Origin: Halobacteriales archaeon QH_7_66_36
Lineage (GTDB): Archaea; Halobacteriota; Halobacteria; Halobacteriales; Haloarculaceae
Length of the DNA: 64,000 bases
Assembly: GCA_003021175.1 (NCBI GenBank)
Contig: PXQV01000017.1
Coordinates: 62,001 to 126,000, forward strand
Direction of reading: 5' to 3'
The notes beneath the pieces were generated by a model that was not told the DNA's origin, did no database searches, and saw only the letters and a list, made by a program, of their open reading frames with translations. Position 1 is the stretch's first letter. Each line of letters starts with the position of its first letter. Made by a program: the position numbers and the translations under genes. Positions 5,519 through 7,038 of the stretch are shown in pieces.

Positions 5519-5589
5519 GGGACCGTGGGGTAGTGGTATCCTCTGCGGATGGGGTCCGTAGGACCTGAGTTCGACTCTCAGCGGTCCCA
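5519..5589 (+). tRNA. tRNA-Pro(GGG)
   Basis: A 71-nt cloverleaf can be drawn: acceptor GGGACCG pairs with CGGTCCC plus discriminator A; the D arm is GGG...TCC; the anticodon stem TGCGG/CCGTA has one G-T pair and loop ATGGGGT, giving anticodon GGG; the variable loop is four bases; the T arm is CTGAG TTCGACT CTCAG. No CCA is encoded and no intron is seen. The DNA just downstream is decayed mobile sequence, but I found no duplicate of the tRNA 3' end there. Confidence 0.93.
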
Positions 5590-5803
5590 CTCTACCGTAT
5601 TCTCCGGACAGAGAGCGACATCGCAGGCGTCACCGGAGTGATTTGCGGGCGTTCCGTCGTCTCTGTTACACGCCGACGCTGATCGTTCAAGCCCGGGTCG
5701 TGTGTTCGTTCTGAATACGAGCGGCACGAGCCTCGAACGCACGCTCGCGTCGAGTCCGCTGGCACGGCCACAGACCATCGACATCCCTTCCGAAGTCGGA
5801 CGA

Positions 5804-6130
5804 TTGACCTCCTCCCGCGCCTGAAGACGCGGGAATCCGACCATTGGATTCGGGCGGTCGCCGCCCTTCGGTTCCAACCCGCACTCGGAGGGAACCGGCG
5901 ACACACCGGGGGAACTCTCGTTTGTCTCCCTCGTCGGGCTGTGGCCCGGCCAATGAGGCCCCATCGACAGCCATGTCATCGCCGTGGGAACCACCGCCGA
6001 TTCCCCTCCTCCTGTGGTTCGAGGACGGCATCTCACGGCTGTCGTAGCAGTACCGATGTCGCGGGCCACGGGATTCAAACTGTTGGGACAAACGGGCCGG
6101 CTGTCGCTCGACCCCCGCCTGAAGACGGGG
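5804..6130 (-). mobile_element. Decayed IS200/IS605-type right end (minus strand)
   Basis: Read on the minus strand this ends with GGATTC, a CCCGCGTCTTCAGGCGCGGG hairpin, GAGG and the tetranucleotide TCAA (5804-5807), the arrangement I associate with right ends of haloarchaeal IS200/IS605 (TnpB) elements. About 20 bases before the hairpin is a two-part stem-loop: GGGCGG/CCGCCC with outer TTGG/CCAA (about 5843-5878). A second CCCCGTCTTCAGGCGGGG hairpin at about 6113-6131 marks another broken end. No tnpA or tnpB reading frame survives; open frames here have no recognisable domain. Confidence 0.5.
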
Positions 6131-6860
6131 GTATGCGCTCGTATCTCCATCATCGACCGCAACATCGATCTCGTAGTACGAATCCTGATAATTGATATAC
6201 GCTGGCTTGCCGCCGAAACGGTCTGATGGGGAGGATTGTAACTCTGCACTCCTCACTCAATAGCAGTCAGAAATGCGCTCTGTGTAGAGGACGTCAACGA
6301 ACCGAATTCGACGACCGTAGAATTAGACGGCAGCCCTCTTTCGTTGACCTGTCGTGAACAGTAATCACAGAGCTCGTCTCACCTTCCGCAATCGGGGCGC
6401 TGATAATCGTAGTATCCCCGAAAGAGGAGCGAACCGTTAGCCGCATTCTCTATAGGCGGAACAGGCGCAATCCCACGTCGTTCACGGCGTGGATACGCGC
6501 GTCACTCAGTGAAACAGCCCACCGTTCAAAAGCCAGTCCTGCGTTTCCCACGAGAGCATTTAATTGACAGCCCACCGTATCAGCGAGGAGGAACCGGTCG
6601 GAACGGAGCGGATTCCGACCCGTCCTTCGGAGGCGGCCTGTCCGCCCGCGTAACGAGGCAGTATCCGAAATGGCAGGCGGTGAACGCACACCCTAAAGGG
6701 TGCGCCGACGTGCCGGCTGCTCGAAGCAATCCAAAGGTACCCCCGAGTCCGCTGACGCCTGCTGGCGTCCCTGTGGCAAAAACAACACTGGGACGCCGTA
6801 CATCTTGAGGATAGGGGTAACGGCCACTTGGCATGGCCAGCAGTCCACCACACCGATACT
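6131..6860. other. Gene-free stretch between two IS remnants
   Basis: I see no supportable gene here. Codon usage of the open frames differs from haloarchaeal genes, local GC is lower (about 6230-6480 is the most AT-rich), and no family motif appears. One minus-strand frame ends WAVSLSDARIHAVNDVGLRL near 6450-6510, which looks protein-like but lacks a credible start; it may be the tail of a lost transposon gene. The stretch is probably decayed mobile DNA. Confidence 0.55.
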
Positions 6861-6967
6861 GTAGGACTACCCGTGCCCGAAAGGTTTGGTAGTCCAGTGA
6901 CTGGACTGCAAACCTGAAACTCCCACCGCTCGGGATTCCTCCGCGTTTACGCGAAGGAGGATGTCAA
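6861..6967 (+). mobile_element. IS200/IS605-type right end with guide-RNA-like stem-loop
   Basis: A 14-bp two-part stem, AGGTTTG (6882-6888) with CAAACCT (6909-6915) and AGTCCAG (6891-6897) with CTGGACT (6901-6907), closes a three-base loop. It is followed by GGATTCCTCCGCG, TTTA, CGCGAAGGAGGAT and TCAA (6964-6967). This is the same order as the minus-strand remnant at 5804-5880: stem-loop, GGATTC, hairpin, TCAA. In TnpB elements this 3' region encodes the guide (omega) RNA scaffold ending at the right end. No tnpB lies upstream, so this would be a solo remnant. Confidence 0.5.
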
Positions 6968-7038
6968 TTACACTGGCTGGTGGCGTATGTTCTACAGGTG
7001 TTCGTAAACGGCAATACTCCCGAAGATGCTATTCACAC

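Follow-up and report, generated by a model that had tools for sequence, protein, structure and literature searches.

Transposase-free elements with palindromes near their termini, no target duplication and IS605-related ends have been described from Haloquadratum walsbyi as PATEs, notably HqIRS71, and their origin by deletion of the element core forms part of that description (PMC3119063). A PATE-like sequence of about 271 nt in Halanaerobium hydrogeniformans is composed of the left-end hairpin, the last 58 nt of tnpB and the whole right end; it is reported as one copy, and the available portions of that report present it without a guide-RNA role (PMC7290912). The omega RNA (reRNA) of TnpB, as presented in the accessible parts of the work on ISDra2 (PMC8612924) and on the haloarchaeal sotRNAs (RF02656/RF02657; PMC12558985), combines the tnpB 3′ end with the right end of the element, uses the 3′ flank as a guide and has a fixed TAM adjoining. 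PATEs and omega RNAs are each already known, separately. A study by Meers et al. (Nature, 2023) on transposon-encoded nucleases and guide RNAs reportedly mentions PATEs among the relatives of IS605 and may anticipate part of the present findings. Among the matches listed in a search of the open-licence literature, no PATE family preserved as guide-RNA-only elements was found.

The element examined here is likewise transposase-free, with HqIRS71 likened to it by description. Unlike the H. walsbyi PATEs, for which the available description gives no guide-RNA role (PMC3119063), its family keeps a covarying fold across genera; and unlike ISDra2 and the sotRNA elements, with which it shares the combination of tnpB 3′ end and right end, it is devoid of tnpB, such that its RNA would have to act in trans.

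A 345-bp element with IS200/IS605-type ends

The window analyzed is a stretch of 64,000 nucleotides from Halobacteriales archaeon QH_7_66_36, and positions refer to this stretch unless another contig is named. Minus-strand hairpins at 5804 to 5880 were identified, by sequence comparison, as the right end of a non-autonomous IS200/IS605-type element (PATE) of 345 bp (5804 to 6148, minus strand); matches to each of its two ends occur elsewhere in the genome, in an autonomous element and in another small copy. The first-pass annotation had marked only the hairpin segment, as a guide-RNA-like right end, an extent that proved too small as the complete element with its left end at about 6148 was missed. 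The motifs it named were all present at their minus-strand places, including: (i) TTGG/CCAA (plus-strand 5874 to 5877 and 5844 to 5847); (ii) GGGCGG/CCGCCC (5852 to 5857 and 5861 to 5866); (iii) GGATTC; (iv) CCCGCG...CGCGGG (5814 to 5833); and (v) TCAA (5804 to 5807).

Near-terminal palindromes were found at both ends of the element, with the left-end hairpin at 6112 to 6131 (minus strand), a feature of small copies and autonomous elements alike, and the terminal hairpin of the right end at 5814 to 5833. Inward of the left-end hairpin follow a variable spacer (6050 to 6104, minus strand) and a conserved core of 246 nt that reaches the right end (5804 to 6049, minus strand) and is the predicted omega RNA scaffold, based on homology to tnpB 3′ ends, compensatory changes and sequence identity; the conserved block starts at TGCTACGG. 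The host target TGAT, the predicted TAM, was located at 6149 to 6152 (minus strand) from the left ends of relatives and the empty site of one of them, while TCAA (5804 to 5807, minus strand) is the putative right cleavage site and scaffold end. A 16-nt guide is predicted in the host DNA downstream of the element (5788 to 5803, minus strand) by analogy with the ISDra2 reRNA, as presented in the accessible part of its description (PMC8612924). The 345 bp leave no room for a transposase or TnpB gene, and the ends are in common with those of an IS605-type element; the window PATE looks to have lost tnpA and tnpB and to have retained both ends together with a seemingly complete omega RNA scaffold.

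When 661 bases around the feature were used to search the same genome, two relatives were matched, each in two pieces. The first is a larger element of the IS605 type (C10:163962-165858). Its left end corresponds to window positions of about 6152 to 6104 and its right end to 5883 to 5803. Between these ends are a Y1 transposase frame and a 415-aa TnpB frame, with no stops; the TnpB scored above the PF07282 cut-off, and the tnpB stop is positioned 77 nt ahead of the right end. The second relative (C15:255496-255923) is a small copy with 79% identity over 253 aligned core positions and an insertion in its left palindrome. Inserts within the left-end palindrome were observed in small elements at L020:1130-1202 (about 46 bp in L020) and in L063, L064, and L186; these resemble the SMR-A repeats of about 110 bp that, in the available text, are reported to target PATE palindromes of Haloquadratum (PMC3119063).

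The sole Y1 TnpA match of the genome was that of the larger element (G000:C10:165294-165608; L018, L019). Its N-terminus was out of frame compared with the seven relatives examined, while the TnpB frame was open. As this N-terminus does not read in frame, the window copy may now be immobile. The disrupted appearance of the only Y1 frame, like the core deletions described for Haloquadratum, speaks for a plain decaying remnant, namely an IS605 deletion derivative with ends conserved for TnpA only and a guide-RNA fold that was inherited but is unused; we regard plain decay as a fairly unlikely account.

Target site, empty site, and spread

The small element was represented by 53 copies from 41 genomes, with the window copy included. 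These were derived from 68 stretches, of which 14 failed a motif filter (among them L057, L067, L162, L166, and L175) and 54 passed, minus one that was an autonomous right end (L183); a TCAA ending was a selection criterion for the 53 copies. The left end was preceded by TGAT in 44 of 45 copies and by TGAC in one, with no preference for the base before it; the search for left ends demanded TGA[TC] and omitted six copies with no readable left end as well as L180 and L197. ISDra2 likewise inserts precisely and without duplication 3′ of a fixed sequence, TTGAT, according to the part of its description available (PMC8612924). Two of the copies, L178 and L179, represent one and the same insertion in two species. 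In a wider search, matches to the element at E 1e-4 were found in 76 of 146 genomes from the family, and matches to the core and right end at E 1e-10 in 141 of 391 genomes that sample the class, with both counts based on a few candidates scored per genome and inclusive of autonomous elements, which have the same right end.

An empty counterpart was identified for one relative of the window copy, L169 (genome G233), in a genome of another species (L237 in G327), with flanks that were contiguous and identical at 481 of 502 bases. At this empty site, TGAT joins directly to the sequence found after TCAA in the filled site, with no duplication. Thus, for this one relative, the element integrated precisely and directly 3′ of a fixed short target, and the TCAA boundary is confirmed. 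No empty site of the window copy was found in five other genomes of the genus, where the matches were to the tRNA-Pro region and IS ends only, and searches with some other copies returned only filled or unrelated copies. The number of copies, together with the single empty site, points to mobility in the past only.

The region of the window at 5600 to 7000, which follows the tRNA-Pro gene (5519 to 5590), was found to have no match at E 0.001 in these five genomes other than the tRNA region and IS ends, and seems to be a place where small elements land.

Relationship of the core to the 3′ end of tnpB

Using a profile built from the small elements, we examined 23 autonomous 3′ ends, which represent 22 of 41 tnpB loci and the C10 element of the same genome. 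The right end matched the profile in all 23 cases, mostly over the last ~80 positions. The tnpB tail was also matched in 21 of the 23, including 20 by a separate piece of 42 to 54 nt and one, L119 of Halonotius pteroides, end to end over profile positions 130 to 380, which was the best match (E 1.1e-18). The hairpin followed by TCAA was detected in 39 of the 40 tnpB loci inspected (41 were found and L127 was left out). By homology, the last ~246 bp of the small elements correspond to the tnpB 3′ end plus the right end, terminating at the element end, which is the stretch that becomes omega RNA in other elements. The initial description of the window segment as a guide-RNA-like right end is borne out to the extent that it is homologous to the right ends of tnpB elements.

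An alternative reason for conservation of the core would be a peptide of the TnpB tail that is still encoded there. About 17 codons resemble this tail, and 35 of 49 copies are free of stops in that frame before TCAA; however, the distance from the motif to TCAA was not constant modulo 3 (32, 13, and 4 of the 49 copies), and a stop was found in the residual frame in 14 of the 49. We judge continued coding for protein to be a highly improbable reason for the conservation of the core.

Conservation and covariation of the core

The copies fall into two classes by their inner stem, of the GGGCGG/CCGCCC type in class 1 and the CGCC/GGCG type in class 2. Conservation was measured pairwise within these classes, with gaps counted, using 30 copies without long inserts. 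Mean identity in class 1 (16 copies) was 0.59 for the spacer, 0.81 for the 5′ core (115 to 246 bases from the right end), and 0.85 for the last 115 bases; in class 2 (14 copies) the values were 0.72, 0.86, and 0.90, respectively, compared with 0.46 for spacers and 0.51 for 5′ cores in shuffled controls. If the ends alone mattered, the 5′ core should resemble the spacer, yet its conservation exceeded that of the spacer and came close to that of the last 115 bases; the ends alone would not call for this pattern. This finding argues against a plain decaying remnant, though the class 2 spacers were themselves fairly conserved (0.72), which fits such a remnant as well. A contrast pooled over the classes (core 0.83 versus spacer 0.51) was rejected as overstated, as the gap-rich alignment had mixed two classes with different spacer lengths; the within-class contrast persists but is smaller.

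Folded alone, the minus strand at 5800 to 5900 gave −47.8 kcal/mol (z −1.69), with 12 of 200 shuffles as good. As this single-sequence fold barely beats shuffles, the case must rest on comparison. The classes were aligned apart, because, in an alignment of all 53 rows, the two classes were shifted against each other along the 3′ strand of the inner stem; this resulted in 23 rows for class 1 and 29 rows for class 2, with L068 left out. In class 1, 92.8% of the cells were found to pair and both-side changes were detected in 59 cells compared with 21.2 after shuffling (0 of 500 shuffles as high; slid versions reached at most 17), whereas the 10 pairs with any both-side change were reached by 78 of 500 shuffles and are not exceptional. 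In class 2, 96.5% of the cells paired, with 25 both-side cells compared with 4.5 after shuffling (0 of 500 as high) and nine pairs with both-side changes compared with 3.4 (0 of 500 as high); since the shuffles ignore relatedness, these covariation counts and those that follow are not probabilities. On a tree of 52 of the 53 copies, built from alignment columns that precede the right-end helices under count, the 19 right-end pairs with both-side variation needed 1 to 6 state changes each, and 15 of the 19 needed more than one, where state changes are changes of pair type and not double changes alone.

When the individual helices were examined in the related elements for the compensatory changes that the first-pass annotation had anticipated, its terminal hairpin and inner stem were supported and its outer stem was not. 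In both classes, the terminal hairpin CCCGCG-CGCGGG (5814 to 5833, minus strand) displayed both-side changes at five of its nine pairs. The inner stem GGGCGG/CCGCCC (5852 to 5866, minus strand) had both-side changes at two of six pairs, with 75.9% of the cells paired, and is real in kind if not at every pair: the fifth pair was changed on both sides in 5 of 23 rows and unpaired in 7, and the innermost pair was unpaired in 19. Counter to these, the outer TTGG/CCAA stem showed no both-side changes in the 23 class-1 rows, a result equaled by all 500 shuffles; 95.7% of its cells pair when G-U is counted, and it takes bases of two better-supported helices. Other helices of the right end include a hairpin (GG)TTCC...GGAA(CC) (5870 to 5896, minus strand), whose TTCC/GGAA portion was paired in 98.9% of class-1 cells with a single both-side change at one pair, and a hairpin CCGG...CCGG (5895 to 5909, minus strand), which appears as CCCG/CGGG and CCAG/CTGG in other copies (pair 39/50 in class 1, pair 34/44 in class 2). 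In the small hairpin ATCCA/CGGAT (5835 to 5849, minus strand), the fifth pair is A.C in the window copy and G-C in 18 of 23 class-1 rows; the class 2 copies L178 and L179 have identical letters there. This mismatch is a mild sign of decay in the window copy, and a broken pair of this kind would be in keeping with a plain decaying remnant.

The terminal hairpins of the IS200/IS605 superfamily are recognized by TnpA in the form of folded DNA, as established for IS608 and ISDra2. For this reason, covariation in that hairpin can be read in more than one way and would also be compatible with hairpins retained as DNA structures that serve TnpA, replication or termination, and not as RNA. When the terminal hairpin was omitted on these grounds, class 1 retained 16 both-side cells compared with 4.9 after shuffling (0 of 500 as high) in five pairs compared with 3.0 (44 of 500), and class 2 retained five cells compared with 0.5 (0 of 500). 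With covariation found in helices away from the end, maintenance purely as DNA is, in our view, improbable.

The 5′ core was analyzed in an alignment (A4) of 48 rows, 47 of them distinct, with L068, L069, L071, L072, and L172 of the 53 copies left out. Included in A4 are L192, L197, L199, and L201, which have an extended hairpin, and six copies that carry all or part of an insert of ~54 nt. This insert, with hairpins of its own, was observed at one fixed core site (A4 columns 120 to 173) in L061, L062, L073, L074, L076, and partly L077, which represent several genomes. Both-side changes were detected in 32 cells of the 5′ core compared with 7.7 after shuffling (0 of 500 as high), in a test that is favored by a structure derived in part from RNAalifold on the same alignment; one pair was found as CG in 21 rows, UA in 13, GC in 5, and UG in 1, and was unpaired in 5. 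Compensatory changes in these internal helices within the family stand against a fold that is inherited and unused. Overall, the small elements have a conserved secondary structure, and the covariation lends support to the RNA fold being under selection.

Relationship to sot0042 and HgcC

A second right end was identified in the window on the plus strand, where a sot0042-like stretch spans 6735 to 6969 and terminates in TCAA. Positions 6735 to 6958 aligned to the whole sot0042 model (RF02656) at 59.1 bits (E 3e-14), with the gathering score of 88 not reached, and the segment 6860 to 6975 folded alone gave a z of −3.08, with 1 of 200 shuffles as good. A palindromic stretch at 6456 to 6513, to which another site of the genome is weakly similar, may be the left end of this plus-strand element. 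The two ends within the window had been taken in the first pass for the same structure with covarying stems; they have only the order of hairpins and TCAA in common and fit different classes, such that a covarying pair is not supported. The sot0042 model did not match the minus-strand end up to E 10.

The minus-strand end aligned to the whole HgcC model (RF00062), with the terminal hairpin and flank taken in, at 28.6 bits (E 3e-4), and differs from HgcC proper in that this score remains below the gathering score of 50. Alignment to a whole RNA model, even subthreshold, is a further point against hairpins kept as DNA structures. HgcC matches were detected in related sources in 16 of 20 cases (E up to 5) and 18 of 20 cases (E up to 1), at 20 to 37.5 bits and all below the gathering score. 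Whole-model subthreshold alignments to HgcC were also observed at tnpB 3′ ends, where the model extends past the element end into the flank. Rfam at gathering thresholds returned zero matches in the whole window, where the tRNA-Pro reported by ARAGORN was missed as well. From these alignments, HgcC would appear to be a guide RNA of TnpB, and no paper that mentions both HgcC and TnpB was found in the literature searched. In the accessible part of a report on T. kodakarensis, three HgcC transcripts originate in transposase genes and another two have no association with such a gene, which by analogy may serve as a precedent for guide-like RNAs without a nuclease gene of their own (PMC4247193).

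Possible use of the RNA in trans

We lean toward an explanation in which the window PATE depends on proteins supplied in trans: TnpA would move it, and TnpB, loaded with the RNA of the PATE, could cut the site that the element has left. A TnpA from another element would excise the PATE as a single strand after TGAT, and the excised PATE would be pasted after another TGAT, with the target and junction as seen in one relative. The subsequent steps are modeled on ISDra2: a TnpB produced from another locus would bind a minus-strand RNA in which TCAA is followed by host-derived sequence, this guide would target TGAT plus guide for cleavage in those copies of the locus that are without the element, and repair of the cut locus would restore the element.

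Co-occurrence with TnpB was examined at the genome level. Same-family TnpB (E 1e-160 or better among the matches listed, some of them partial) was detected in 28 of 66 PATE genomes compared with 69 of 325 others, a positive association (odds ratio 2.7, p 5e-4, uncorrected for relatedness). Same-family TnpB at this threshold, with weaker matches uncounted, was absent from 38 of the 66 small-element genomes, an absence that speaks for a plain decaying remnant. An extension of the explanation in trans, which we hold tentatively and with a little less than even confidence, is that a widespread protein-free family of haloarchaea is doubly dependent as a parasite, borrowing TnpA to move and TnpB for its retention, with selection acting mainly on the guide RNA and with the guide rewritten at each insertion.

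Use of the PATE RNA would explain why a small gene-less element keeps a core of 246 nt, and an old orphan RNA, HgcC, would thereby be linked to the guide RNAs of TnpB. If the RNA is used, the retention function of TnpB would be a public good exploited by protein-free elements; and if the dependence is indeed double, TnpB elements would be hijacked by many ‘guide-only’ elements that compete for one nuclease.
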